Assembly: GCF_002750855.1 (NCBI RefSeq)
Contig: NZ_NWUC01000002.1
Span: 1-64,000, forward strand
Source of the DNA: Neopararhizobium haloflavum
GTDB taxonomy: Bacteria; Pseudomonadota; Alphaproteobacteria; Rhizobiales; Rhizobiaceae
Direction: 5' to 3'
DNA: 64,000 nt
Positions 94 through 32,535 of this stretch are shown here, one piece after another; position 1 is the first letter of the stretch, and every line of letters begins with the position of its first letter. The translations under genes and the position numbers were made by a program. The notes below the pieces were generated by a model. The model had not been told where the DNA came from. It did no database searches and saw nothing but the letters and a program-made list of their open reading frames with translations.

Positions 94-939
94 ATGACCT
101 ATCATCACCTTGCCACCCGGTTCGGCCGCAACAGCCATCAGATCAGCGGGCGCGAAGCGCTCGACAACGAGGCGCTTTATCGGCACGTCCCCTCGATCTT
201 CGCCCGCGAGGCCCATGACAGCCGGTCGGAGCGTTACGTCTATGTTCCCACCATTGACATTGTGGAGGGGTTGCGCCGGGAAGGATGGTTCCCGTTCTTC
301 GCCGTGCAGTCGGTCCCACGCGACGGCAGCCGCCACGGCCACGCCAAGCATATGCTGCGCCTGCGCCGGGATGACGGCATCGGCAAGCAGGAGGCGGCGG
401 AAGTCATCATCGTCAATTCCCATGACGGAACCAGCAGCTATCAGATGTTCGCCGGAATGTTGCGTTTCGTCTGCACCAACAGCCTAGTGGCGGGCGAGCG
501 GTTCGAGGACGTGCGCGTTCCCCACAAGGGAAGTATCCAGCATGACATTATCGAAGGCGTCTATACCGTCGCGGAGGACTTCCCCCGGCTGATCGACGCC
601 AGCGAGACCATGAAGGAAATCCAGCTTGGCGAAGATGAGCGCCGCGTTCTGGCGGAGGCGAGCCTTGTCGCCCGCTACGGCGAAGAAGAAAGCCCCGTTC
701 GCCCGGATCAGATCATCCAGCCGCGCCGCCGCGAGGATGTCGGGCAAAGTCTTTGGATGACCTACAACACCATTCAGGAGAACATGATAAGGGGCGGATT
801 GCATGGACGCCGCCAGACTTCGGACGGCCGTATTCGCCGCAGCCAGACCCGCGCTATCAACGGCATCGACCAGAACGTGACCCTCAATCGCGCGCTCTGG
901 ACGCTGGCCGAAGGCATGCAGCGCCTCAAGGCCCGATGA
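94..939 (+). CDS. DUF932 domain protein (phage/plasmid-related)
   Basis: This 281-aa protein matches the DUF932 family, common on plasmids, phages and ICEs and of unknown biochemical role. The N-terminal stretch around YHHLATRFGRNSHQISGREAL and the central NSHDGTSSYQMFAGMLRFVCTNS segment, which precedes VAGERF, are characteristic. The start at 94 is chosen because AAGGA lies 8 nt upstream; an in-frame ATG at 46 has no such site and would add 16 unrelated residues. It is soluble, with no signal peptide or membrane segment. It is followed at once by a strong hairpin (948-975), so it is probably the last gene of a transcript that begins to the left. In related elements such genes sit in the stable, non-transfer part; a role in DNA maintenance or anti-defence is only a guess. 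Confidence 0.85.
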   Translation: MTYHHLATRFGRNSHQISGREALDNEALYRHVPSIFAREAHDSRSERYVYVPTIDIVEGLRREGWFPFFAVQSVPRDGSRHGHAKHMLRLRRDDGIGKQEAAEVIIVNSHDGTSSYQMFAGMLRFVCTNSLVAGERFEDVRVPHKGSIQHDIIEGVYTVAEDFPRLIDASETMKEIQLGEDERRVLAEASLVARYGEEESPVRPDQIIQPRRREDVGQSLWMTYNTIQENMIRGGLHGRRQTSDGRIRRSQTRAINGIDQNVTLNRALWTLAEGMQRLKAR

Positions 940-1247: not shown

Positions 1248-2031
1248 ATGCTTAGCATCGACTGGCGTGTTCCGGCGGCTTACAAGCACACCAAGAATTT
1301 GCCCGCCGCCGGTTTCGCCTGGGAATATCTTCGTCGCAACGATGAGTATCGCCATGACTTCAACGCCATTGCCCTGACCGGAGAACCCGGCGCGCGGCAA
1401 TTGGAGCGGTTCGCGCAGCGCTGGGGGTTGCGATTTCGCAAGCGACCCCGACGCATCGCCTGATAGCCATACCCCGTTCTGGTCTCCGCGCCTTCAGCCG
1501 CAGGCGGTCATGCTGTCGCCTGTCGAACAGGAGGCCGTAGAAACCGAGCCGCTGGTCGCTCTCGCCCATCTCGATGGTCTCGATCTGCGCCGCGCCGCCG
1601 ATGGCTGGCATGGCGTCTGGCAGGTGGGCAACGTCGCGCACCAGTTCTGGTTGCCGGACGCGGTGCCCGACGCCGCAGCCTTCTATGCCGTGACCTTGCC
1701 GATGGATTCATTTCTGGAGCTTCGCGCCCATGCCGCACGCCGTCTCTGGCGATCTCTCACCCGGCGACCGCCGGGACCGCCTATCGGCATCCTTCCCGAC
1801 CAGCTCCGGGAATGGCACATCCTGTCCCTGCGCGCGCTTGATGCTCGTCTGCGCGGTGAGAGCTATCGCGCCATCGCCGAAGTCCTGCTCGGCTTCCACG
1901 GCACGAAGGAGGATTTCGAAGGCGATCCAGCCAAGAACAAAGCCCGTCGCCTCGTCGCCCACGGCATCAGGATGATGCGCGGCGGCTATCGCCTGCTGCT
2001 GCATTATCCGATCAAACCCGGCAAAACCTGA
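1248..2031 (+). CDS. fseA: FseA-like ICE excision activator, two frames joined by +1 frameshift
   Basis: Two overlapping reading frames are annotated as one gene. Frame 1 (1248-1463) encodes an N-terminal DUF6499/transcriptional-regulator domain (MLSIDWRVPAAYKHTKNL, then FAWEYLRRNDEYRHDF and a WGLRF end). Frame 2, offset by +1, is open from 1378 to 2031 and encodes a DUF2285 domain (LREWHILSLRALDARLRGES onward). In single-frame relatives WGLRF is followed by a stretch like A-x-DPD and then FW-x-P. That continuation is found only in the +1 frame (FASDPDASPDS, then PFWSP). The shift is predicted at UUU-C (1434-1437): tRNA-Phe can slip from UUU to UUC, skipping one base, giving a product of about 260 aa. 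Established knowledge: FseA of ICEMlSymR7A is made by a programmed +1 shift between msi172 and msi171 and activates the excisionase gene rdfS. GGGAG lies 8 nt before the ATG. A sequencing error or mutation is the alternative, but the conserved two-frame layout argues against it. Confidence 0.8.
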
Positions 2032-2069: not shown

Positions 2070-2357
2070 TCACGCCTTATTGGCGGCAGCCTGTTCCAAA
2101 ATCCGTTTGTAGCCCTCGCGTGAGAGCCATTGTGCCCGTTCCAGATGGCTTTGCCAGCATCGCCGTGTCCGCAGTTCTTCGGCGACCGGATCGCGGTGCA
2201 GCACGATTCGCGCCACTTCCTTCCAGTCCGCATTTTCGGCCTTCGCATCGAGAAGGCGCAGATAGGTCACGAAATGCCGTTCGTCATAGGTGGTGATCTC
2301 GTCGCCAGTCGGCGCGATGTCGTCCACATCGGGATCAAGTTCGACAGGAACCCGCAT
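2070..2357 (-). CDS. qseM: QseM-like DUF2285 antiactivator
   Basis: A 95-aa protein consisting almost only of a DUF2285 domain. It aligns by eye with the C-terminal half of the FseA-like product: RHFVTYLRLLDAK matches REWHILSLRALDAR, and LSREGYKRIL matches MRGGYRLLL near the end. It converges on the fseA-like gene, 38 nt tail to tail. Established knowledge: in Mesorhizobium ICEs QseM is a small DUF2285 protein that binds and inhibits both TraR and FseA, so a mimic of the FseA dimer surface is expected. The start at 2357 is preferred because AAAGGGGA is 6 nt upstream; the ATG two codons earlier (2363) overlaps too closely with it. QseC, the usual regulator of qseM, was not found in this window. 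Function is inferred from domain, size and position. Confidence 0.75.
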   Translation of the reverse strand: MRVPVELDPDVDDIAPTGDEITTYDERHFVTYLRLLDAKAENADWKEVARIVLHRDPVAEELRTRRCWQSHLERAQWLSREGYKRILEQAAANKA

Positions 2358-2410
2358 CGTCATTCCCCTTTCTTCAGAAGAGTGCCTGCGGTGCGCCCCC
2401 GCAGATAAGA

Positions 2411-2701: not shown

Positions 2702-2756
2702 GGGGGTGCCGCCAGCGCATAGGCGCAAATGCGGCACGCTACAGGCCGCCGATCCC
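2702..2756 (+). promoter_or_regulatory. ICE regulatory box, copy 1 (upstream of rdfS-like/repA operon)
   Basis: A 55-nt segment nearly identical (50 of 55) to 28912-28966. It contains the inverted repeat GTGCCGC (2706-2712) and GCGGCAC (2731-2737), about three helical turns end to end, and ends in CCGCCGATCCC. It lies about 70 nt upstream of the excisionase-like gene, the position expected for an activator site or activated promoter. The FseA-like protein is the obvious candidate binder, but that is inference. Confidence 0.65.
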
Positions 2757-2827
2757 TCGCCATCGTTCGCCACAGCCCGCTGTCGCTTCGGCAGCCGCCT
2801 GTCTGACGAATTACGAGGTGATTCCCC

Positions 2828-3097
2828 ATGGCCGTTCGCAATCCGGACCTGCCACCGCGCCTTTTGCGCACAAAGGAAGCCGCACGCTTCCTCGGCCTGT
2901 CCATCCGCACTTTAGAAAAGCACCGCACCTATGGCACCGGCCCGACCTACCGCAAGATCGGCGGCCGCGTCCTCTACGCCCTGCGCGATCTGGAAGCATG
3001 GAGCGCCATCGGCACCCGCAAATCCACCAGCGACAAGAATACCGGCACGGTCTTCGCCGCTCGCCCGCTGACGCCGCAAGAGCGGGACGAACTGTAA
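2828..3097 (+). CDS. rdfS: RdfS/AlpA-like helix-turn-helix protein (excisionase candidate)
   Basis: An 89-aa protein with an AlpA/MerR-type winged helix-turn-helix: RLLRTKEAARFLGLSIRTLEKHR is the helix-turn-helix, followed by GPTYRKIGGRVLYALRDLE as the wing. Such proteins bend DNA and act as recombination directionality factors or local transcription regulators. In Mesorhizobium ICEs RdfS stands at the head of the transfer gene block and drives excision. Here it likewise heads an operon running without gaps into repA (the stop is directly followed by the repA ATG) and parA. GAGGTG lies 9 nt before the ATG. The recombinase here is of the serine type, so the protein might instead regulate replication; both roles are possible. 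Confidence 0.75.
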   Translation: MAVRNPDLPPRLLRTKEAARFLGLSIRTLEKHRTYGTGPTYRKIGGRVLYALRDLEAWSAIGTRKSTSDKNTGTVFAARPLTPQERDEL

Positions 3098-4138
3098 ATG
3101 CTGCGCGACGACGACCCCAGACCCGCACAGCCGAGCGAAGACAGTGAGCGCACCCGCCTGGACCCGTTCATCGTGGCGACCGGCGACGCCGCCCCGCGCG
3201 ACCAGCGCGATTTGATGGAACGGCCCTTCTTCTCGCTGGCGAAGCGCCCCCGCACCACGCCGATCCTCTACCGGGCCGCCGATGTCGAGGTGCAGGTATT
3301 CGCCATGCCCGAACATGGCATGGCGACGATCTGGGACGCCGATGTGCTGATCTGGGCCGCTTCGCAGATCGTCGCGGCCGGGAACAACGGCATCCCCACG
3401 TCGCGGTTCTTCCGCTTCATGCCTTATCAGCTTCTGCGCTCGATCGGACGAGCTACCGGCAATCGGGAATATCTGTTGCTCAAGGCCGCGCTTGCGCGCC
3501 TGCAATCCACCGTCATCGCCACCACCATCCGCAACGGCAAGCATTGGCGGCGGCGGCAATTCTCATGGATCAACGAATGGGAAGAGATGACGACGCGCGC
3601 CGGCCGCGTCGAAGGCATGGAATTCGTCCTGCCCGAATGGTTCTACAACAGCGTCAGCGACCGCTCGCTGGTCCTGACCATCGACCCGGCCTATTTCCGG
3701 CTGACGGGCGGGATCGAACGCTGGCTTTACCGCGTCGCCCGCAAACACGCCGGGCGCCAGCCCGAGGGCTGGGCGTTCGAGATTTCCCACCTTCATCAGA
3801 AATCCGGCAGCGCAGCGCGACCATCCGACTTCGCGCTCGACCTGCGGCGGATCGCGGCTCGTCAGTCGCTGCCCGGATACCTGCTCCTGACCGAATGGGA
3901 AGACGGGCGCGAACTGCTGCGTTTTCTGCCCGAAAATCTATCCACAGTGCCTGTGGATAACCATGTGAATCCTATCGGGACATTAGGCGCACGCAGTATC
4001 GGGACATTAGGCGCAAATCGCACGCCGGACTCTATAGAAGAATCTAACAAAGAATCTAACTCTTCTTCTTTGACGCGCGCGCACGCGATCCATGGTGCCG
4101 GTGCCAGTGCTGGTTCCGGCCACCGAGGTGCGCCATGA
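3098..4138 (+). CDS. repA: Replication initiator protein A (RPA family)
   Basis: A 346-aa protein of the replication initiator protein A family found on alphaproteobacterial plasmids and ICEs. The family pattern is visible in ERPFFSLAKRPRTTPILY near residue 40, the MATIWDADVLIWAASQI block, and the RFMPYQLLRSIGRATG block. The C-terminus is low in complexity and includes a repeated IGTLGA peptide encoded by two DNA repeats (see the origin feature). It is fused tightly to its neighbours: it starts one base after the excisionase-like gene and its stop overlaps parA by ATGA. With parA it would allow the excised circle to replicate and segregate. Whether the origin works in this host cannot be told from sequence. 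Confidence 0.85.
   Translation: MLRDDDPRPAQPSEDSERTRLDPFIVATGDAAPRDQRDLMERPFFSLAKRPRTTPILYRAADVEVQVFAMPEHGMATIWDADVLIWAASQIVAAGNNGIPTSRFFRFMPYQLLRSIGRATGNREYLLLKAALARLQSTVIATTIRNGKHWRRRQFSWINEWEEMTTRAGRVEGMEFVLPEWFYNSVSDRSLVLTIDPAYFRLTGGIERWLYRVARKHAGRQPEGWAFEISHLHQKSGSAARPSDFALDLRRIAARQSLPGYLLLTEWEDGRELLRFLPENLSTVPVDNHVNPIGTLGARSIGTLGANRTPDSIEESNKESNSSSLTRAHAIHGAGASAGSGHRGAP
3938..4070. other. oriV: Probable replication origin inside the 3' end of repA
   Basis: Three elements typical of a plasmid origin lie in order. First, two facing DnaA boxes: CTATCCACA (3938-3946, one mismatch to TTATCCACA) and TGTGGATAA (3952-3960, an exact box on the minus strand). Second, two identical 19-nt direct repeats TATCGGGACATTAGGCGCA at 3973-3991 and 3997-4015, spaced 24 nt, suitable as RepA-binding iterons. 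Third, an AT-rich stretch (about 4031-4070) with the repeat AGAATCTAAC at 4039-4048 and 4051-4060, suitable as an unwinding element, in otherwise very GC-rich DNA. All of it is read as codons of repA. Assignment as origin is inference from these motifs. Confidence 0.7.
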
Positions 4139-9766: not shown

Positions 9767-10696
9767 CTATTCGGCTGCTTGGCCAAATTCCGCAGCACCC
9801 TTTTTCATGCCACGCGCTTCGTGGATCAGCCAGTCAACGAAACCTCGAACCAAGTCTCCAGGATCGGCTTGACGGGGGATAACCGCGACATAGCCCGTTC
9901 TCGGCACCCGAATGTCTGGCAGAGGCGTCATCAGCCTTCCGCTGGCAATGTCGATATCAAGCATGGGAAGCGGGCCGATCCCGATGCCAAGCCCATCTTC
10001 CACCGCCTGGCGGGCAACGAAGAAGTGGTCAAATGTCTGACGCGACAGTCCGGCGAGATGCTGGAGTTCTGCCGCTTCAAGCCAGTTCACCCAATCGCCG
10101 GGACGCGTTTCACTAGCAAGCAGCGTATGTCCCTCAATTTCCGCAGGCTTGAGGATTGGGCGCTCGGCGAATAACGCGGGGCTCATGATCAACGTATCCA
10201 CGTCGTCCAGCACCGGAACGACATGGTGTTGGGGCCAGATATCATCCCGCGCAACGCCACGCCGGATCGAGAGATCCACGCCGCCGCGCAACTCTTCCTG
10301 CACGCAGGACACGGTCGTGACGACGACTCCGACATGCGGGTGATCGGCATGATAGCGACCGAGCCGGGGAATGAGCCAGCGCATCGCGAGGCTGGTCGGG
10401 GCGCTCACGCGCAGGATGCGGCGCGCGTTCGGGCGGCCGCAGGCTTCTGCTGCGACAGACAGACGGTCGAATGAAAGCCCGACCTCTGCGGCGAAGATTT
10501 TCGCTGTTGGCGTAGCGACCATGCGGCGACCATCCCGCACGAACAGCTTCTGCCCCAACCAGCCTTCCAATACGGCGATCTGACGGCTCACCGCGCCATG
10601 GGTGAGGCCGAGTTCAGCTCCCGCCTCTGCATAGCTGCCTGTCCGGGCAGCGACTTCGAATATGCGCAGGGCATTTAAGGGAGGAAGATGGCGCAT
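9767..10696 (-). CDS. LysR-type regulator (GcvA-like)
   Basis: A 309-aa LysR-type regulator. The N-terminal helix-turn-helix is typical of the GcvA/AmpR subgroup: MRHLPPLNALRIFEVAARTG, then SYAEAGAELGLTHGAVSRQI. The substrate-binding domain follows from about residue 90. The start at 10696 fits the family N-terminus exactly; upstream in-frame starts would add an unrelated 50-residue extension. It is divergent from the MFS gene, with 136 nt between them, and is expected to control the MFS-SDR pair in response to the exported compound. This is the first cargo gene after the relaxase. Confidence 0.9.
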   Translation of the reverse strand: MRHLPPLNALRIFEVAARTGSYAEAGAELGLTHGAVSRQIAVLEGWLGQKLFVRDGRRMVATPTAKIFAAEVGLSFDRLSVAAEACGRPNARRILRVSAPTSLAMRWLIPRLGRYHADHPHVGVVVTTVSCVQEELRGGVDLSIRRGVARDDIWPQHHVVPVLDDVDTLIMSPALFAERPILKPAEIEGHTLLASETRPGDWVNWLEAAELQHLAGLSRQTFDHFFVARQAVEDGLGIGIGPLPMLDIDIASGRLMTPLPDIRVPRTGYVAVIPRQADPGDLVRGFVDWLIHEARGMKKGAAEFGQAAE

Positions 10697-10832
10697 GTTG
10701 AAACCGTGAGAAAAGCGAACGATATGCGTGAGCAAAACCATACTAGTCGATGAAATCTCACACGTATACCGTCGAATGACAAGTTGGCCAGACATGGCAA
10801 GGTAAACAGCATTCCGGGCAGAACAGTGAGAG
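10697..10832. promoter_or_regulatory. Divergent LysR/MFS promoter region
   Basis: A 136-nt region, AT-richer than its flanks. GTGAG occurs twice on the plus strand (around 10707 and 10730) and its inverse CTCAC near 10758. A GTGAG...CTCAC arrangement with about 23 nt between arms is a plausible LysR-type operator. The exact recognition site cannot be fixed by eye. Confidence 0.4.
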
Positions 10833-12014
10833 ATGAACCGCAGCAATCGATGGAATAATCAAAAACGTAGCCTTGTCGGAGCGAGCCTCACACATGCCTT
10901 GCATGATGGTTACACAGACTCCCTCTATGCCTTCATGCCGGTATGGCAGGCGCAGTTCGGGCTGTCCTATGCGGCTCTTGCCGTTATCCGTGCCCTCTAT
11001 TACGCGACCATGGGCGGGCTTCAGCTACCTGCCAATCGGCTCCTTAGCGGTTGGTCGCCACGCGCAGCGCTGATCCTCTCCACAGCTATCGCGGTAGCCG
11101 GCCTTGTGATCATGGCTCTGCCACTGGGGCTGGCGGGGCTCTGCGTCGGCCTCGTTGTGGCCGGCATTGGGTCGAGCATTCAGCACCCGCGTGCGTCTCT
11201 GCTTGTGACCGAAAGTTATGGGGATGCCGCGCGACGCCCTCTCGGTATCTATAATTTCGCGGGCGATCTCGGAAAGGCCATCTTGCCGGCGCTTGTCGCA
11301 TTGCTGCTGACGGTTCTTACCTGGCGACCAGTGCTGGGACTGATGGCGACGCTCGGGGCCGCTTTGATGTTCACCCTGGTTCGGCTGGTGCCGCCCGTTT
11401 CTGCTGCCACCGAAAGCAAGAGACAGCGGACCATCAGCCGCCGACGCAGCGGTTTTCGTATTCTCACAGTGATCGGCGGCTTCGATACCGCCACCCGCAT
11501 GGGGTATCTGCTGTTTCTTCCCTTTCTTGTTCAGGGACGCGGTGGTGGCCTACCGACGGTTGGTGTCGCACTTGCGCTACTGTTTATCGGTGGCGCGTTC
11601 GGGAAAGCAGTTTTCGGCGGCCTTGGAGTAAGGCTGGGCGTCGTCAGGACCGTGATGGTGGCCGAGGCCATGACCGCCTCGCTGATCGTCGCGACGCTGT
11701 TCACGCCGCTGCCCTTGACGCTCATCCTGTTGCCGCTGCTCGGCGTTGTTCTCAACGGCACATCGTCGGTGCTCTACGGCACTGTGCCTGAACTGTCGGA
11801 CGGCGATACAGGTCGAGCTTTCGCAATCTTCTATACGAGCGTTATCGGCTCCGGGGGTCTCGCCCCGATCCTTTATGGGGCAATCGCGGATCACAGCAGC
11901 CGAACGGTCGGGGTTCTTGCGGCGGCCGCCACCGCGGTTTCGATCATTCCGCTTGTCCTGGCGCTAGGCTCCCATCTGCGAAGCCCGGCAGCCGACGCCA
12001 CAACTGTCGCATAA
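10833..12014 (+). CDS. MFS exporter, FSR-like
   Basis: A 393-aa major facilitator with 12 predicted membrane segments. The N-terminal THALHDGYTDSLYAFMPVWQ, directly before the first transmembrane pair, resembles the fosmidomycin-resistance (FSR) subgroup of MFS drug exporters. IGSSIQHPRASLLVTE in helix 4/5 is another subgroup mark. It is likely a proton-driven efflux pump in the inner membrane. It is divergent from the LysR regulator and followed by the SDR gene 68 nt later, so both may form one transcript. The substrate is unknown; no good ribosome-binding site is seen before the ATG. Confidence 0.85.
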   Translation: MNRSNRWNNQKRSLVGASLTHALHDGYTDSLYAFMPVWQAQFGLSYAALAVIRALYYATMGGLQLPANRLLSGWSPRAALILSTAIAVAGLVIMALPLGLAGLCVGLVVAGIGSSIQHPRASLLVTESYGDAARRPLGIYNFAGDLGKAILPALVALLLTVLTWRPVLGLMATLGAALMFTLVRLVPPVSAATESKRQRTISRRRSGFRILTVIGGFDTATRMGYLLFLPFLVQGRGGGLPTVGVALALLFIGGAFGKAVFGGLGVRLGVVRTVMVAEAMTASLIVATLFTPLPLTLILLPLLGVVLNGTSSVLYGTVPELSDGDTGRAFAIFYTSVIGSGGLAPILYGAIADHSSRTVGVLAAAATAVSIIPLVLALGSHLRSPAADATTVA

Positions 12015-12082
12015 TTGACTGACCCCAAATAACCGACCGGCTCCTGACCGGCCTCATTCAACGCCCTGAGAAAGGCCAGAAA

Positions 12083-12844
12083 ATGAATACCGTTTTGCAG
12101 GCACCCCTGATGTTGATAACCGGAGGAAGCCGTGGCGTGGGTGCTGCGACTGCGCGGCTGGCCGCGGCCAAAGGCTATAATGTCGTCATCACTTTTGTTT
12201 CCAATGAGGCTGCGGCTCATGCGGTCACAGCCGATGTGGAAGCCGCCGGGCGCAGGGCTTTGGCCGTGCGGGCAGACAGTGCCGACCCCGAGCAAATCAC
12301 CCAGCTTTTCTCCACGATCGACCGGGAGTTTGGCCGGATCGATGTGCTGGTGAACAACGCCGGGATCATTGCACAGCAATCCCGGCTGGAAAATCTCGGC
12401 TTCGAGCGTATGCAGCGGATATTCGCGGTCAACGCGATCGGTCCGATGCTCTGCGCCCAGCAGGCGGTCAGACGGATGTCCACCCGCCACAGCGGGCGGG
12501 GTGGTGTCGTGATCAACATTTCGTCGGCATCGGCCCGGCTCGGTAGCCCGAACGAATATGTCGACTACGCCGCCTCGAAGGGTGCTCTCGAGACATTCAC
12601 AACCGGCTTCTCCAAGGAAGTTGCGCGGGAGGGAATACGCGTCTGCTGCATTCGCCCCGGCCACATCTATACCGAGATGCACGCCAGCGGCGGAGAACCC
12701 GGACGGGTGGATCGGGTCAGGGACACGATTCCCATGGGAAGGGGTGGTCAGCCCGAAGAAGTCGCCCGCGCGATTGTGTGGCTGGCGAGTGACGAAGCGT
12801 CTTTCATCACCGGTACATTCCTGGACGTCACCGGCGGCAAGTGA
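12083..12844 (+). CDS. SDR family oxidoreductase (3-oxoacyl-ACP-reductase-like)
   Basis: A 253-aa classical short-chain dehydrogenase. The cofactor motif TGGSRGVG is at residues 13-20, NNAG near 91, the catalytic Ser in NISSASARLG, and the YxxxK pair in YVDYAASKGALE. It ends in the usual FLDVTGGK. It is probably NADP(H)-dependent, judging by the Ser/Arg in the glycine loop. AGAAAGG lies 8 nt before the ATG. With the neighbouring exporter and regulator it may act on a small carbonyl compound that the element protects against; the substrate is not predictable. Confidence 0.9.
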   Translation: MNTVLQAPLMLITGGSRGVGAATARLAAAKGYNVVITFVSNEAAAHAVTADVEAAGRRALAVRADSADPEQITQLFSTIDREFGRIDVLVNNAGIIAQQSRLENLGFERMQRIFAVNAIGPMLCAQQAVRRMSTRHSGRGGVVINISSASARLGSPNEYVDYAASKGALETFTTGFSKEVAREGIRVCCIRPGHIYTEMHASGGEPGRVDRVRDTIPMGRGGQPEEVARAIVWLASDEASFITGTFLDVTGGK

Positions 12845-13023
12845 ACGACGAAGCTGTGCGCAAGCTGCTGGCGCGCCCTGTCGCGTGCGCCGCAGGCGAC
12901 GTGAACGAGTTCGCGGCGACAGTGCTCCCATAGGCGGCGTAGCGTGGAAGTGGCTCCGCACGTCGTAGTCAGGATGTCCGCGTGCAGGGATTAGTCGGCA
13001 GGTGACGCTCGGATAAAGAAAAC

Positions 13024-13058
13024 TTGATAAACCTAACAAACCGGTTTATACGGTTTGT
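13024..13058 (+). promoter_or_regulatory. Promoter and overlapping operator of the CGNR regulator
   Basis: TTGATA (13024-13029), a 17-nt spacer and TATACG (13047-13052) form a good sigma70-type promoter. The inverted repeat ACAAACCG (13036-13043) and CGGTTTGT (13051-13058) overlaps the -10 box. The predicted transcription start falls on or next to the A of the ATG at 13059, so the transcript would be leaderless. The operator position suggests autorepression by the CGNR protein. Confidence 0.65.
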
Positions 13059-13643
13059 ATGATCAACGTAGATGAATTCCGATTCAATTCCGGCCGTCTT
13101 GCTCTGGATCTTCCGGCAACCGTCCGTCGTAGGGCTTCCGAGCCGCAAGACGTGCTGGCGCCATCAGGCGCACCGGCTCGCTGGCTGCGCGACGCTGGTC
13201 TGAGCCAAGAGTTGCTGGCGCTTTCCCCTGAGCAGACATCTGACCTTGAGACGCTCCGGGAAGCGATATGGGCGGTTGCCGATGCGGCTGCCGCCGAGCG
13301 CGATTTGCCCGCAGAGGCGGTCGCAACATTGAATGAAATGGCGGCACTGCCATTGGCGGTGCCGAAGCTCGATGCGAGGTCGGCAACCGTGAAGCTGTTT
13401 GCCGACGATCCATTTCAGACAGCGCTCGCAACAATTGCGAGGGATGCAATCGATCTTCTCGGCAGCCCGCTACGAACACGCATCAAGGCGTGTGAGCAGC
13501 CTGACTGCCGAATGCTCTTCCTCGACTCATCCCGCAGTTCCCGGCGGCGCTGGTGCTCGATGGATCGGTGCGGCAGTCGCGCTAAAGGCGAAACGTTTCG
13601 GCAGAGGCGAAGAAAGGACGGCCATGAACATCCCGCCACTTAA
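13059..13643 (+). CDS. CGNR zinc-finger transcriptional regulator
   Basis: A 194-aa protein with the N-terminal ABATE-type stress-sensing domain (FRFNSGRLALDLPATVRRR and onward) and a C-terminal CGNR zinc finger. In the finger, C-x4-C is in ACEQPDCRMLFLDSSR and the second pair in WCSMDRCGSR. The second pair usually reads CGNR; here it is CGSR. Such proteins regulate neighbouring efflux or degradation genes. No ribosome-binding site precedes the ATG, which lies directly after a promoter/operator. The C-terminal end overlaps the hydrolase gene by 20 nt, so the two are co-transcribed. Confidence 0.85.
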   Translation: MINVDEFRFNSGRLALDLPATVRRRASEPQDVLAPSGAPARWLRDAGLSQELLALSPEQTSDLETLREAIWAVADAAAAERDLPAEAVATLNEMAALPLAVPKLDARSATVKLFADDPFQTALATIARDAIDLLGSPLRTRIKACEQPDCRMLFLDSSRSSRRRWCSMDRCGSRAKGETFRQRRRKDGHEHPAT

Positions 13644-14472
13644 GAGCAATTTTGTAGCCGTCGGTCCCTATCGACTGTCGATGGCTCGGGCAGGTCAGGG
13701 ACCATCGATAGTACTTCTGCATGGAATACCTACACATGGTTTTCTCTGGCGCGAGGTTGCGCCTCGTCTCGTGGAAGCCGGCTTCGAGGTTACTGTCTTT
13801 GACCTTCTCGGCTACGGCGACTCCGATAAGCCGGTTGACGCCGATCTCGGCATTGCCGCCCAAGCGCGCTACATCGTTGATGCCCTTGAAGAGGTCGGTT
13901 GGCGAGGCGGATACATCGTCGGCCATGACATCGGCGGCGGGGTCGCCCAGCTGATAGCCCTTGCAAATCCGAACGTCATCGCTGGTCTCGTTCTTATTGA
14001 CACAATCGCCTACGATTCCTTCCCGGAACCCGGCATTGCGCGTCTCAAAGAGCCGGCCTGGGATGATATCCTCACTGCGCCAGACTTCGACCTGAAGAAA
14101 GGGTTCGCGAAAGGACTGACGCGCGGGATGGTTCGTGCCGACCGAGTGACGACAGCGCTGATTGATGCCTATGAGCGTCCTTTTAGAGGGGTTGAAGGAC
14201 GCGGGGCCTATCTCCGCGCAGCGCGAGCGCTCCGTACAGAAGACCTTACATCCCGGATGGGTGCGATCGAGACTCTGCCAGTTCCCACCATGGTTATATG
14301 GGGCGAGCGCGATGTTTTTCAGTCCGTTACCTATGGTCAGCGACTTGTGGAAGCTATGCCCAACGCTCGCCTTGAGATCGTCGCCGACGCTGGACACTTC
14401 CTACCGGAAGACGCGCCCGAATTCCTTGCAGAACTCATCACGAAATTTACCACGTCCAGCCAGGGAGCGTAA
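13624..14472 (+). CDS. Alpha/beta hydrolase, epoxide hydrolase/dehalogenase type
   Basis: A 282-aa alpha/beta-fold hydrolase. The oxyanion HGIPTHGFLWR loop is near residue 36. The nucleophile elbow reads GHDIGGG (about 102-108), so Asp rather than Ser is the likely nucleophile, as in epoxide hydrolases and haloalkane dehalogenases. The catalytic His is in ADAGHFLPEDAP near the C-terminus. A cap domain lies at about 130-215. AAAGGA is 8 nt before the ATG. It overlaps the CGNR regulator and is 2 nt from the EamA exporter, which suggests one detoxification or degradation operon. The substrate is unknown. Confidence 0.85.
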   Translation: MNIPPLKSNFVAVGPYRLSMARAGQGPSIVLLHGIPTHGFLWREVAPRLVEAGFEVTVFDLLGYGDSDKPVDADLGIAAQARYIVDALEEVGWRGGYIVGHDIGGGVAQLIALANPNVIAGLVLIDTIAYDSFPEPGIARLKEPAWDDILTAPDFDLKKGFAKGLTRGMVRADRVTTALIDAYERPFRGVEGRGAYLRAARALRTEDLTSRMGAIETLPVPTMVIWGERDVFQSVTYGQRLVEAMPNARLEIVADAGHFLPEDAPEFLAELITKFTTSSQGA

Positions 14473-14474
14473 TC

Positions 14475-15452
14475 ATGCCCACGCGGACGCGACCTGCGCC
14501 GGTATCTCAAGTGCCATTCTTTATAATACTGATTGCATCCACCTTTCTGATGGGGTCCAGCTTCGTCGCAGGGAAAATCCTGATCCAGCAGGGTTTCGAC
14601 CCCATGATTCTGGTGGGATGGCGCTTCCTTGTTGCAGCACTCGCCACCCTCCCTTTGGTCCTCCTCGACAAGGGTAACCTCAGACAGGTACTTTTTCCGC
14701 GCCGAGCTAGCCTGCGTGATATTGCTCTGGTGATCCTTATTGGGCTGGTCCAGACGGCAGCGGTCATGGGCCTGCTCTTCTGGGCAATGCAGTTCGTGTC
14801 CGCATCGACCGCCGCCATTTTACTTTTCACCAATCCTATCTGGGTTGCCGTGCTGGGCCGTTTCTTTCTTGGCGAAACACTTCATCGTGGAAGATTGACC
14901 GGGCTTGTCCTCGGCGTCATCGGCGTCGGACTCGCCATTGGTCTTGGACCAGACATGCTTTCCGGTGGCGACACTTTGCTCGGTGAAATCATCGGTATTG
15001 CATCCGCCCTCTGCTGGGCGACAGCTACGATCATCAACAAACGCGCCAATCTGCCGTTTGGTCCATGGGGGCTGAGCTTCTGGCAGATGCTGATCGGCTC
15101 CCTCGCTGTCTTGGGGCTTGCATACGGTACAGGCGAGCACTGGCCGGCATCCGTCACGAGGGAGCAGTGGGGATGGTTCTTCTGGCTCGCAATCCCCGCC
15201 TCAACAGGCTCCTTCGGTTTGTGGTTCGTGGCGTTGAACAAGGGGGGCGCAACGAAGACGAGCGGCTTTCTGTTCCTGGCCCCGTTGTTCACGGTGATCC
15301 TGTCGTATTTCATACTTGGCGCCACGCTCTCCTGGCTCCAGGCCTGCGGAGGCATTCTGATCGGCATCGCATTATGGCTGGTCAACAGCGAAATTCCCGC
15401 GAGAAACCGCCGCGAACGCCGCGATGAAGTAACTGCTGAGGGGCAGCCGTGA
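14475..15452 (+). CDS. EamA/DMT family transporter
   Basis: A 325-aa drug/metabolite transporter with two EamA repeats and ten predicted membrane helices. The first repeat begins FFIILIASTFLMGSSFVAGK and the second near the LLGEIIGIASALCWATATII segment. It is an inner-membrane exporter of amino acids, metabolites or drugs. It starts 2 nt after the hydrolase stop and is the last gene of the CGNR-hydrolase-exporter operon, so it may expel the hydrolase substrate or product. Confidence 0.9.
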   Translation: MPTRTRPAPVSQVPFFIILIASTFLMGSSFVAGKILIQQGFDPMILVGWRFLVAALATLPLVLLDKGNLRQVLFPRRASLRDIALVILIGLVQTAAVMGLLFWAMQFVSASTAAILLFTNPIWVAVLGRFFLGETLHRGRLTGLVLGVIGVGLAIGLGPDMLSGGDTLLGEIIGIASALCWATATIINKRANLPFGPWGLSFWQMLIGSLAVLGLAYGTGEHWPASVTREQWGWFFWLAIPASTGSFGLWFVALNKGGATKTSGFLFLAPLFTVILSYFILGATLSWLQACGGILIGIALWLVNSEIPARNRRERRDEVTAEGQP

Positions 15453-15568
15453 TGCGCGAATCCAAAGTGACCGCATGTCGTTGGACTCGTAGCTGCAACA
15501 GCCTTTCCTTGTTCAAGAACTCCGCTTCCGCCGCTGAAGTGTGACGTTTCAGCTCGGCGGTAAACAAC

Positions 15569-16537
15569 ATGCGAAGGAGGCAGAGAAAAGAACCGGAAAT
15601 AGCTTCTCGCCTTTCAATCCTTCGAAGCCATGTCCCGATGGTTGCCCTGATCCAGACTCTCGCTGTCGCGGAATATCTCAGTTTCCACCGTGCCGCTCTG
15701 GCGCTGGGCACTAGCCAGTCGAGCGTGAGCGCCCGGATCAAGGCGCTGGAAACTGACCTTGGAATCGTCCTCTTTGACCGCAACACGCGCGGCGTTCGGA
15801 TGACCGAAGCCGGACGCCGTTTCGTCGATCAGGTCAATGACGCCATGGGTATTCTCGACCGGGCGATCAAGACGGCCGGGATGCATGCGCGCAGCGAGCA
15901 AGGTGATATTCGGATCGGCGTTCATGCCCTCACGGCAGGGTGCTTCCTGGATCTTCTACTGGAACGCTTTCACGATAAGCATCCGGGCATTCGTCTACAC
16001 ATCACCGAAGGCACGGCGCGGGATGCGCAATTCATGGTGCGTGAAGGTCGGCTCGATGTCGCCTTCATGGCCGGCGCTCACGAAATCTCCGACCTAAACT
16101 CCCGCGTCATCTGGCGGGACCGGCTGATGGTTGCGCTGCCATTGAAGCATCCGCTGGCGGAGCTATCGAACGTCGAATGGCGGCAGCTTGCCGACGAAAC
16201 CTTCCTTATCCGCCACCATGGTACCGGCCCACAGGTGCACGATCTGATCGTGCTGCGTTCGGCCGGAAAATGGCCTGTGCCGACAATTCTGCGTCGTAAG
16301 GTCGGGCGCGAGGCGCTGCTGGCGATGATCGCGGCCGGACATGGCATCTCGCTTTTTGTCGAGGACAGCACAGTCGGCAACACAGCGAATGTTATTTTCC
16401 TGCCAATCAGTGACGAGCCTGAAACCATCCCATTTTCGGCCGTCTGGTCGCCGAGAAACCGCGACCCGGCGCTTTTGAGCCTGCTCACCTTAGCGACGAA
16501 AATGGGCCGTCCACATCCGAAACCTGATTCGCGTTAG
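15569..16537 (+). CDS. LysR-type regulator at the edge of the conjugation block
   Basis: A 322-aa LysR-type regulator. The DNA-binding helix-turn-helix is in LAVAEYLSFHRAALALGTSQ, followed by SSVSARIKALETDLGIVLFD. The N-terminal extension ASRLSILRSHVPMVALIQ precedes it and, as I recall, is shared by LysR genes found next to traG in related elements. The ligand domain begins near residue 110 (GDIRIGVHALTAGCFLDLLL). It is transcribed toward traG and could be part of the core element rather than the cargo. GAAGGAGG lies upstream of an alternative start region; the ATG at 15569 is itself in a purine-rich context. Confidence 0.85.
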   Translation: MRRRQRKEPEIASRLSILRSHVPMVALIQTLAVAEYLSFHRAALALGTSQSSVSARIKALETDLGIVLFDRNTRGVRMTEAGRRFVDQVNDAMGILDRAIKTAGMHARSEQGDIRIGVHALTAGCFLDLLLERFHDKHPGIRLHITEGTARDAQFMVREGRLDVAFMAGAHEISDLNSRVIWRDRLMVALPLKHPLAELSNVEWRQLADETFLIRHHGTGPQVHDLIVLRSAGKWPVPTILRRKVGREALLAMIAAGHGISLFVEDSTVGNTANVIFLPISDEPETIPFSAVWSPRNRDPALLSLLTLATKMGRPHPKPDSR

Positions 16538-29368: not shown

Positions 29369-29758
29369 ATGACGACACTCAAGGTCGGGATCGCCGAACC
29401 CGATGAAATGAAGGCCCGGACCATGCGAATCGCCAAGGGCGAGGAGAAGCCCGCGCCCGGCGATCCGACCGTTTGGTTCGCGTCCACCATGTCCTTTGCC
29501 AAGTTCCTGTCGCCCAGCAATTGCGAACTGCTCCGCATCATCCATGAGCGTGAGCCGGACTCGCTGGAGGAACTGGCCCAAATCACCGGCCGCGCGAAAT
29601 CCAACCTGTCCCGGACCCTCAAGGCCATGGCTGGCTACGGCCTCGTCCGCATGGAGAAGGGCAAAGGCCTCAAGCTGGTGCCGAAGGTCATTCATGACCG
29701 CGTGGAGCTGGTCCTGCCCCTGATCGAACGGCGCAAGTCGAAAGGAACCCGCAAATGA
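29369..29758 (+). CDS. Winged-helix (MarR/ArsR-like) regulator
   Basis: A 129-aa protein with a winged helix-turn-helix: CELLRIIHEREPDSLEELAQ, then ITGRAKSNLSRTLKAMAGYG and LVRMEKGKGLKLVPKV as the wing. It resembles the HVO_A0114-type putative DNA-binding proteins, some of which are antitoxins. Its stop overlaps the recombinase start by ATGA, so the two are co-translated. A role in controlling recombinase expression or orienting recombination is likely, but unproven. Confidence 0.8.
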   Translation: MTTLKVGIAEPDEMKARTMRIAKGEEKPAPGDPTVWFASTMSFAKFLSPSNCELLRIIHEREPDSLEELAQITGRAKSNLSRTLKAMAGYGLVRMEKGKGLKLVPKVIHDRVELVLPLIERRKSKGTRK

Positions 29759-32535
29759 ACGCACAATCTCCCAACGTCGCCTTACGGGCGGCCCTCTACC
29801 TGCGCGTCTCGACCGCCCGGCAGGCCGAGCATGACGTGTCGATCCCCGACCAGCGCAAGCAGGGCGAGGCTTATTGCGCCGCGCGAGGCTATCAGCTTGT
29901 CGAAATCTTCGTGGAACCGGGTAACACGGCCACCAACGACCGCCGCCCGGAATTCCAGCGGATGATCGAGGCGGGCACGTCGAAACCTGCGCCCTTCGAC
30001 GTGGTGCTGGTTCACAGCTTCTCGCGCTTCTTCCGCGACGCTTTCGACATGGAATATTACTATCGCAAGCTCGCCAAGAACGACGTGCGCCTGATTTCCA
30101 TCACGCAAGAGTTGGGGGACGACCCGATCCACGACATGATGCGTCGGATCATGTCCCTGTTCGACGAATACCAGTCGAAGGAAAACGGCAAGCACGTCAC
30201 GCGCGCCCTGAAGGAGAATGCCCGGCAAGGCTTCTGGAACGGAGCGTTGCCGCCGATCGGCTACCGGATCGCCGCCGCCGAACAACGTGGTGCCAAGACC
30301 AAGAAAAAGTTGGAAATCGACCCGCTGCACGCCGACACGATCCGCCTGATCTATCGGCTCGCGTTGGAAGGGCAAGGCGACAGCGGCCAGATGGGCGTCA
30401 AGGCGATCGTCAAGCATCTGAACGCCAAGGGCATCTTCACCCGCGACGGCGGTCGCTGGGGCATCGGCCAAGTCCATCGTGTCCTGACCCGCCGCACCTA
30501 TATCGGCGAACATGAATGGGGAAAGCGCAGCAAGCACAACGACCCACGCGCTCCAGGCGAGATCGTCATCGTCCCGGTGCCCGCCATCATCGAGCGGGAG
30601 ACTTTCGACGCCGTTCAGTCGCTTCTGCAGGCTCGCAACCCCAAGACCGAACTGCCCGCCCGTGTGGTGATCGGGCCGACCCTACTGACTGGTATCTGCT
30701 ATTGCGGCGATTGCGGTGGTGCCATGACCATCCGCACCGGCAAGAGCGGCCGCTACCGTTACTATGCCTGCTCGATCAAGGCACGGCAGGGCGAGACCGG
30801 CTGCAAGGGCCGAGCGATCCCCATGGACAAGCTCGACGGCATGGTGGTCAGCCATATCGAAGACCGCTTGCTCGATCCCGCCCGTCTGGAGAAGCTACTC
30901 GGCAGCATCCTCGGCCGCCGCGAGGATCAGGCCGCGCGCCGCAGGGAGCACATCGCCTCTTTGCAGCGGCAGGCAACCGAATCGGAATCGCGCCTCAAGC
31001 GCCTCTATGATGCCATCGAGGTCGGCGTCGCTGATCTGGACGACCCGGCGCTCAAGGAGCGTATCGCCGGTCTCAAGGTCATCCGCGATCAGGCGCGGGC
31101 TGACGCCGACCGGGCGCAGGCGCTGCTCGAAAGCCCCGGCCACGGCGCCCTTAGCCCCGAAATGATCGAAGGGTTTGCACGCCGCGCGCGGGAGCGCATT
31201 CGCGGCCATGAGGGCGGCTATCGGCGGGATCACCTGCGCGCGCTGGCGCAGCGCGTCGAGGTCGCGGACGACGCAATTCGCATCATGGGATCGAAAACGG
31301 AGCTGCTGAAGACGCTTATTGCCGGTCAAGGGCGGCAATCGGCGGCAATTGGCGTGCCCAAAGGCGGTCTGAAATGGCGGAGAGGAAGGGATTCGAACCC
31401 TCGATACCGTCTCCGGTATACTCCCTTAGCAGGGGAGCGCCTTCGACCACTCGGCCACCTCTCCGCGTCGCTTCGAGCGTGGATAAAGAAAAGCGAAGCA
31501 CTAATCAACACGGGTTCGGCGAAATTCCGCGTGGAGAGCGTTTCAGGCGAAGACGGCCGCGGCGATCAGCGCCCAGGCGAGCGTCGTCACGACCGCCATG
31601 CCGGTTGCGAGCGTCATGGCGGTGGAGGCCAGGCGCTGGCCGGTGTTGAAGCGCGAGGCGATCAGCCATGCATTGACGCCGGCGGGCAGCGATGCGGCGA
31701 TGACGGCGACCTGAGCGGGGACCGGCGGCAGGCCGATGATGAGCGCCATGACGAGCGCGACGGCCGGCATCAGCACGAGCTTGACGGCCGAAAGCGTCAG
31801 CGCCGGCACGAGATGCCCGTGAAGGCCGAATTTGCGCAGGCTCATGCCCATGGCGACGAGAGCGAGCGGACCGGCCACGCTCGCCACCGTGTCGACCAGA
31901 CGGGTGGCCAGTGGCGGCAGCGGCTTGCCGATGAGACGACCCGCCAGGCCGCACAGGATGCCGATCACCAGCGGGTTGGTCAGGAACTGTCGGACGAAAT
32001 TGCCCAGCATGGCGCGTGGTCCGCGGCGCTCGCCGGATGCAGTGACGCCGTCGCGGTGCAGCGCCCATTCGAACAGCACCATCGACGTGGCAAGCATGAT
32101 GGCGAGGTGCACCGAAATGATGAGGCTGAGCGTCAGCAGGCCCTCGTCGCCGAACATGCCGGAGACGAGCGGCAAGCCAACGAGTACCAGATTCGAGAAG
32201 GCGGAGGTGACACCGGCGACGACGCCGGCGCGCGCATCGCGGCCGTACCCCTTTCGGATGATCAGATGACCAGCGGTCCAGGTGACCGCGACGGAGGTAA
32301 AATAGGCAATCCACAACCCCCAGGGCGGCCCGCCGGTGAAATCGGCATTGATCAGGGTCCGAAAGAGCAGAAGCGGGATGGCGATGGTGAAGACGAAGTC
32401 GCTCAAGCCTTCGTCAGTTCCCGGCTTCAGGATCTTCGCGGCCGCAGCGCCATAGCCGACGACGATCAGCAGGAAGACGAACAGGATCGTTTCAACGAAA
32501 GGCGGCATGGTGGTTCCTGGTGCCGGCGGGAATGA
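29755..32535 (+). CDS. Large serine recombinase (ICE integrase), frame running through the att site
   Basis: The element-coded part (about 29755-31374, 540 residues) is a complete large serine recombinase. Catalytic Ser19 lies in AALYLRVSTARQ, the resolvase domain covers about residues 10-150 (VHSFSRFFRDAFDMEYYYRK), and the recombinase domain about 165-280. A zinc ribbon begins GICYCGDCGGAM, and a coiled coil follows (about 390-470). No stop occurs before the tRNA-Ser gene. The frame crosses the tRNA antisense (RRGRDSNPRY) and the whole opposite-strand AEC gene, stopping at 32535. The residues after about 540 are therefore chromosomal and surely not a functional domain. In the excised circle the frame would continue into the element's left end instead. 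The start overlaps the winged-helix gene by ATGA. Confidence 0.8.
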   Translation: MNAQSPNVALRAALYLRVSTARQAEHDVSIPDQRKQGEAYCAARGYQLVEIFVEPGNTATNDRRPEFQRMIEAGTSKPAPFDVVLVHSFSRFFRDAFDMEYYYRKLAKNDVRLISITQELGDDPIHDMMRRIMSLFDEYQSKENGKHVTRALKENARQGFWNGALPPIGYRIAAAEQRGAKTKKKLEIDPLHADTIRLIYRLALEGQGDSGQMGVKAIVKHLNAKGIFTRDGGRWGIGQVHRVLTRRTYIGEHEWGKRSKHNDPRAPGEIVIVPVPAIIERETFDAVQSLLQARNPKTELPARVVIGPTLLTGICYCGDCGGAMTIRTGKSGRYRYYACSIKARQGETGCKGRAIPMDKLDGMVVSHIEDRLLDPARLEKLLGSILGRREDQAARRREHIASLQRQATESESRLKRLYDAIEVGVADLDDPALKERIAGLKVIRDQARADADRAQALLESPGHGALSPEMIEGFARRARERIRGHEGGYRRDHLRALAQRVEVADDAIRIMGSKTELLKTLIAGQGRQSAAIGVPKGGLKWRRGRDSNPRYRLRYTPLAGERLRPLGHLSASLRAWIKKSEALINTGSAKFRVESVSGEDGRGDQRPGERRHDRHAGCERHGGGGQALAGVEARGDQPCIDAGGQRCGDDGDLSGDRRQADDERHDERDGRHQHELDGRKRQRRHEMPVKAEFAQAHAHGDESERTGHARHRVDQTGGQWRQRLADETTRQAAQDADHQRVGQELSDEIAQHGAWSAALAGCSDAVAVQRPFEQHHRRGKHDGEVHRNDEAERQQALVAEHAGDERQANEYQIREGGGDTGDDAGARIAAVPLSDDQMTSGPGDRDGGKIGNPQPPGRPAGEIGIDQGPKEQKRDGDGEDEVAQAFVSSRLQDLRGRSAIADDDQQEDEQDRFNERRHGGSWCRRE
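31331..31390. other. attR: Right attachment site region of the ICE
   Basis: The recombinase gene abuts the 3' end of tRNA-Ser(GCU), and gene content changes from ICE to chromosome here. GGCGGCAAT occurs twice in tandem (31331-31339 and 31341-31349) next to the junction and may be a binding arm. The core is probably within the tRNA 3' part (TGGCGGAGAGGAAGGG, 31375-31390), but the matching left end is outside the window, so the crossover cannot be fixed. Confidence 0.55.
31375..31464 (-). tRNA. tRNA-Ser (anticodon GCU)
   Basis: A 90-nt type II tRNA. Acceptor stem GGAGAGG/CCTCTCC with discriminator G and encoded CCA (31375-31377). The D arm contains GGCCGAGTGG. The anticodon stem CTCCC/GGGAG holds the loop CTGCTAA with GCT at complement 31428-31430. 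A long variable arm ACCGGAGACGGT-like precedes the T arm GGGTTCGAATCCC. It reads serine codons AGC/AGU. The 3' end faces the ICE, as expected for a tRNA gene serving as integration target. Confidence 0.95.
31480..31508 (-). promoter_or_regulatory. tRNA-Ser promoter
   Basis: On the minus strand TTGATT (31508-31503), a 17-nt spacer and TATCCA (31485-31480) precede the tRNA 5' end by 15 nt. The predicted start at about 31473 leaves a short leader for RNase P to remove. Confidence 0.5.
31543..32508 (-). CDS. AEC family transporter
   Basis: A 321-aa auxin-efflux-carrier-type permease with about ten membrane helices. It starts MPPFVETILFVFLLIVVGYG; the central polar loop begins near residue 140. 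Bacterial members move malate, malonate or other organic acids, or are uncharacterised. AGGAACC lies just before the ATG. It is opposite and wholly inside the run-on frame of the recombinase; codon use and the full membrane pattern show that this strand is the real gene. It is the first chromosomal gene right of the ICE. Confidence 0.9.
   Translation of the reverse strand: MPPFVETILFVFLLIVVGYGAAAAKILKPGTDEGLSDFVFTIAIPLLLFRTLINADFTGGPPWGLWIAYFTSVAVTWTAGHLIIRKGYGRDARAGVVAGVTSAFSNLVLVGLPLVSGMFGDEGLLTLSLIISVHLAIMLATSMVLFEWALHRDGVTASGERRGPRAMLGNFVRQFLTNPLVIGILCGLAGRLIGKPLPPLATRLVDTVASVAGPLALVAMGMSLRKFGLHGHLVPALTLSAVKLVLMPAVALVMALIIGLPPVPAQVAVIAASLPAGVNAWLIASRFNTGQRLASTAMTLATGMAVVTTLAWALIAAAVFA

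Follow-up and report, generated by a model that had tools for sequence, protein, structure and literature searches.

A two-frame fseA homologue with a predicted +1 frameshift signal in Neopararhizobium haloflavum

The locus and its neighbours

The window, that is, the whole stretch of 64,000 nucleotides analysed here from Neopararhizobium haloflavum (NCBI RefSeq assembly GCF_002750855.1, contig NZ_NWUC01000002.1, positions 1 to 64,000 of the forward strand), carries near its beginning a gene divided between two overlapping reading frames, and beside it several genes that recur next to its relatives:

94..939, + strand: DUF932 gene directly upstream of fseA (PF06067, E 7.3e-45 for 118-939)
1248..1463, + strand: fseA part 1, frame-0 ORF with DUF6499 (Trans_reg_dom; PF20109, E 5.7e-24)
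1378..2031, + strand: fseA part 2, DUF2285 (RovC_DNA-bd) in the +1 frame (PF10074, E 2.8e-28, and the phase test below)
1422..1437, + strand: predicted +1 frameshift signal UGGGGG, UUG, CGA, UUU C, kept in relatives
2070..2363, - strand: qseM-like gene, a lone acidic DUF2285 (net -4, pI 5.3; PF10074, E 7.8e-7)
2708..2735, + strand: candidate FseA box GCCGCC-N16-TGCGGC, ahead of the rdfS-like gene, with 5 of 6 positions paired
2828..3097, + strand: rdfS-like HTH_17 gene (PF12728, E 1.3e-8)
3098..4138, + strand: repA-like gene for replication initiator protein A, immediately behind the rdfS-like gene (PF10134, E 4.4e-82)

Frame 0 runs from ATG 1248 to a TGA at 1461-1463, followed at once by TAG 1464, and in a Pfam search its PF20109 match covers the family's full 60 positions. 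It contains AWEYLRRN, the counterpart of the AWEFLRRN-like motif of the family, and judged by this motif the family's Arg37 is present. The +1 frame opens at 1378, behind the stop TGA 1375-1377, and its domain frame ends at 2031; it holds no ATG, GTG or TTG from 1378 until ATG 1510. A preliminary description of this DNA had proposed a DUF6499-like frame ending at 1463 and a DUF2285 frame open from 1378, and both coordinates and Pfam matches agree. Within the overlap, UGGGGG occupies 1422-1427 and the slip tetramer UUU C (TTTC) 1434-1437; the frame-0 codon after UUU is CGC, not a stop, and frame 0 continues to the UGA at 1461. The family reading excludes the final eight codons of frame 0, those after UUU, and part 2 is expected to be read from UUC 1435 onward.

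The DUF2285 part of fseA is basic (net +8, pI 11.2), in contrast to the acidic QseM-like protein, as published for FseA and QseM. The latter is a lone acidic DUF2285 protein without DUF6499, the profile of the QseM family, and by analogy is likely an antiactivator; the rdfS-like gene, by the same analogy, is a likely FseA target. An Asp common to both FseA DUF2285 copies (the window's and a second one in the genome) and both QseM-like proteins was equated with Asp210, in DUF2285 helix 1, by position only.

The neighbourhood recurs. Twelve loci were gathered in named genomes from 80 pattern matches, using the N-termini of both copies. In 11 of them the strand opposite fseA carries a QseM-like match downstream of it, about 3 kb from the slip site in L010 and L011; none is present in L016. 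Matches to the rdfS-like and repA-like genes are likewise present in 11 of the 12, the record of L009 ending before them. DUF932 is a frequent neighbour (8/12), not found beside the second copy. All four genes stand beside fseA in half of the named loci (L005, L006, L007, L008, L010 and L011), which come from Novosphingobium, Haematobacter, Sandaracinobacteroides, an Acetobacteraceae bacterium, Pseudochelatococcus and Rhizobium.

The candidate FseA box lies 93-120 bp before the rdfS-like start codon and has a perfect form, TGCCGC-N18-GCGGCA, at 2707-2736. The published box consists of hexamers 15-16 bp apart upstream of rdfS (PMC10359603, excerpt), with the nearer hexamer at 62-67. Among the 12 upstream regions examined, a perfect hexamer repeat occurs in 10, mostly near-copies of one another, and was not found in L012 or the second copy. 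By our own estimate chance alone gives such a repeat in about one in five regions of this kind; hence the main support comes from L016, where the box is changed in both arms with compensation (GCCGGA-N16-TCCGGC).

Slip-site conservation among relatives

Further loci were collected through PF20109, which matched in 25 of 385 genomes of a class sample, 50 of 397 of a phylum sample and 61 of 297 of an order sample; the samples overlap in part, and the best loci, at most 30 from each, were taken. Each domain was modelled separately from 65 seed loci selected for having TTTC, a choice that may favour such loci. In this way 91 of 96 loci could be classified: the second domain lies in the +1 frame in 82, in the same frame in eight and otherwise in one. 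The C-terminal match is absent in four of the unclassifiable loci (L038, L055, L067 and L071) and the N-terminal match in the fifth (L041). Open length alone would label L031, L046, L065 and L066 single-frame; their family reading is in the +1 frame, and the domain models were used instead. L051, with two frame breaks, was excluded from the two-frame count, and L048, of the +1 type but with a stop in its +1 frame after 61 codons, was kept. After identical copies were dropped, 77 two-frame loci remained, including the window's and the second copy.

The slip site is conserved in this set. The preliminary description had placed the switch at UUU C (1434-1437); the position agrees with ours, and 76 of the 77 distinct loci use TTT as the junction Phe codon, 73 as TTTC and three as TTTT (71 and three scored by script, and the TTTC of L031 and L046 read by hand). 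Codon choice around the junction departs from that of the same genes: elsewhere TTT accounts for 24% of Phe codons (131/547), GGG encodes the Gly of WG in 56 of 76 loci, compared with 12% of Gly codons elsewhere, and of the 53 loci with an Arg before TTT 46 use CGA, compared with 9% elsewhere, all comparisons that ignore shared ancestry. By contrast, in the six single-frame loci with WG (L034, L036, L037, L069, L070 and L072) neither TTT nor GGG is found at the matching codons (0/6 each); L039 and L040, single-frame loci with no usable WG motif, stand outside this comparison. When 83 second domains (77 split and six single-frame, L039 and L070 being too short to include) were placed in a tree, the single-frame label needed at least four changes, counted under a midpoint root that gives no direction.

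The sole exception among the 77 is L024, which reads TGG AGG TTG CGG TGT C and has neither TTTC nor GGG; judging from its sequence, it may either be decaying or use another route. This split relative (L024:1486-2272) offers a natural test of whether the slip site is needed.

A frame change alone, whether a sequencing error or a true frameshift mutation in a dead gene, would give the same appearance as the window's locus. We rule this out, and consider its probability negligible: the same layout and site are found in the second copy and in relatives (76/77 two-frame loci), and the +1 frame is constrained. Close relatives with one intact frame, named in the preliminary description among the cases that would refute the programmed frameshift, were sought, and no single-frame locus was found among the 12 named loci. 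Within the window's genus, a PF20109 match is present in three of four genomes, and the two loci of the other species (L097 and L098, kept apart from the main counts) are both of the +1 type with TTTC. These two also carry an extra lone DUF2285 match upstream of fseA on the same strand, whereas the window's lone DUF2285 gene is convergent. Matches to the second frame occur in 35 of 72,556 plasmid records, with 80% or more of the query covered in 32, as matched by the DUF2285 frame alone; one scan of viral contigs with the second frame gave six pattern matches and no relatives.

Coding constraint and the route to a predicted joint protein

In a phase test on 16 close loci including the window's, aligned without gaps according to their distance from the slip, differences upstream of it fall preferentially on third positions of frame 0 (1257/2942 pairwise differences, shuffle p 0.0004), and those from the slip to ATG 1510 on third positions of the +1 frame (1180/2263, shuffle p 0.0001), with shuffles that ignore kinship. 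The signal is absent in the first 24 bases after the slip, where frame 0 continues to its stop (202/554); this would fit double-frame reading, in a sample that is also small. Coding constraint on the +1 frame thus acts ahead of ATG 1510, the earliest usual start codon in it, a result that speaks for shifting rather than separate initiation. The 100 bases after UUU showed no more RNA structure than expected by chance (z 0.39).

Two separate proteins, with the DUF2285 part translated independently from ATG 1510 or some rarer start, have been claimed for Azorhizobium rihF1a/rihF1b, and the Azorhizobium homologues are stated to have their own start and stop codons (PMC9601964, excerpt). In the window, ATG 1510 lies in the +1 frame behind a weak GGCGG stretch, and across the split loci some +1-frame ATG, GTG or TTG is available upstream of the slip in 48 of 74. 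Initiation at 1510 would nonetheless omit the conserved DPD...FWSP stretch, which is constrained in the +1 frame, and the window offers no alternative start between 1378 and 1510. Moreover, in 22 of the 69 split loci with a loose FW-like motif there is no start before the slip and the first later one lies behind the motif, and the near-invariant UUU would be left unexplained. We consider separate initiation very improbable.

With both domains present, the slip site conserved, the +1 frame constrained as coding sequence and the gene neighbourhood recurring, the locus is very probably a split fseA homologue on an element of integrative or conjugative type, its frames joined by a programmed +1 frameshift. 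The preliminary description had likewise proposed such a frameshift yielding an FseA-like activator, a proposal that the comparative evidence supports. Our model takes the slip and its frequency, as well as DNA binding, antiactivation and excision as the output, from the Mesorhizobium japonicum R7A system. Ribosomes would read the DUF6499 frame as far as CGA UUU; a fraction would then slip by +1 as P-site tRNA-Phe shifts its pairing from UUU to UUC, while the remainder would terminate at UGA 1461. The shifted product would be a single DUF6499-DUF2285 activator, predicted to bind the inverted repeat that precedes the rdfS-like gene (2828) and to turn on the genes for excision and transfer. The QseM-like protein, encoded convergently at 2070-2363, may restrain this activator by binding its DUF6499 part. 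UUUU replaces UUUC in the split relatives L023, L032 and L064; in UUUU loci tRNA-Phe would re-pair from UUU to UUU.

The same joint protein could also arise with CGA in the P site, one U being skipped and tRNA-Phe decoding UUC in the A site. The strong enrichment of CGA before UUU would suit such skipping, as would the GGGGG that ends 3 nt before CGA, a distance resembling the short spacing of prfB. In prfB (RF2) a Shine-Dalgarno-like stretch lies just ahead of the +1 slip codon, and the window's slip codon is similarly preceded; unlike prfB, the window's frame 0 has no stop directly after the slip codon, and GGGGG lies 6 nt from it. Other split loci, however, have TGC, CAT, CTG, ACC and others as the codon before UUU. 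Skipping also needs no particular base, so that the skipped position would be free to vary, yet the first U is kept in 76 of 77 split loci. This near-invariance favours P-site re-pairing of tRNA-Phe, which on the sequence evidence we prefer; A-site skipping appears unlikely. Taken across the sample, the comparisons lend support to an FseA +1 switch both in this element and in the majority of the sampled two-frame relatives, whose joint FseA protein tends to be overlooked in annotation.

Published systems, the element and a second copy

The founding paper on the FseA frameshift reportedly appeared in PNAS in 2015. The general system is already described, and this locus adds another example of published FseA control. 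In the excerpt of PMC10359603, about 61% of 4709 FseA homologues are split at a conserved +1 site, and UGGGGG, the FseA box and the QseM mechanism are all described; compared with these split homologues at large, as that excerpt presents them, the window's gene has the same two domains and the conserved +1 site, and we found no notable difference. FseA (Msi172-Msi171) of ICEMlSymR7A in M. japonicum R7A similarly joins DUF6499 and DUF2285 from overlapping frames by a +1 frameshift, which here is predicted, and shares UGGGGG before the site, an rdfS-like target and a QseM-type gene, features compared by description (excerpts of PMC10359603 and PMC5882170, the latter on the R7A system; PMC5009743, also in excerpt, was drawn on as well). 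In R7A, fseA follows traI2 and is under quorum-sensing control, whereas the window's follows the DUF932 gene. Also unlike R7A, the window's QseM-like gene sits next to fseA in convergent orientation, and the window gave no LuxR-type match (PF03472); the genome has four, one of them on this contig at 321 kb. RovC, the Yersinia T6SS activator and namesake of PF10074, has the same DUF2285-type DNA-binding domain but activates a secretion system rather than element transfer (comparison from the excerpt of PMC10359603).

The element carries a serine recombinase ORF (29755-32535, + strand, 926 aa) with Resolvase, Recombinase and Zn ribbon matches within residues 12-368; the rest of the protein, about 560 residues, gave no Pfam match at E 1e-4. 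This ORF overlaps the next, an aminotransferase, by 16 bases. A relaxase-type DUF3363 protein extends up to 9760, traG and trb genes are present, and the cargo consists of metabolic and transport genes. Between relaxase and traG (9767-16537) lie two LysR regulators, MFS and EamA transporters, a short-chain dehydrogenase, a CGNR zinc-finger protein and an alpha/beta hydrolase. Since the contig begins at window base 1, the element's left end is missing. The preliminary description implied novelty from the serine recombinase and the different cargo, which is weak: among 41 Mesorhizobium genomes, serine recombinases or integrases were found on one ICE and five IMEs, and according to the abstract each ICE carries fseA (PMC8627217, excerpt).

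The host genome has four PF10074 matches, the window's pair (1696-2004, + strand, and 2097-2306, - strand) and a second pair on contig C10 (G000:C10), one below the curated cut-off. The second fseA copy (L001, minus strand) is 37% identical to the window's over the first domain, is also split, and has the same junction, TGGGGG TTG CGA TTT CGC, encoding WGLRF. It is accompanied by its own QseM-like and rdfS-like genes, with a similar contrast in charge (QseM-like net -8 vs FseA DUF2285 net +9), and the operator-like repeat of the window's circuit was not found before its rdfS-like gene. We tentatively raise the possibility, doubtful as it is, that the two split circuits are insulated at the operator yet coupled through QseM-DUF6499 binding, so that excision would be coordinated or mutually blocked. 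The second split copy, like the window's QseM-like (2070-2363) and rdfS-like (2828-3097) genes, was absent from the preliminary description. At L001 the split fseA (1483-2251, - strand) and its QseM-like gene (2384-2644, - strand) are accompanied by a divergent ORF (2827-3045, + strand), which by eye resembles an XRE-type helix-turn-helix protein and has a position like that of QseC.
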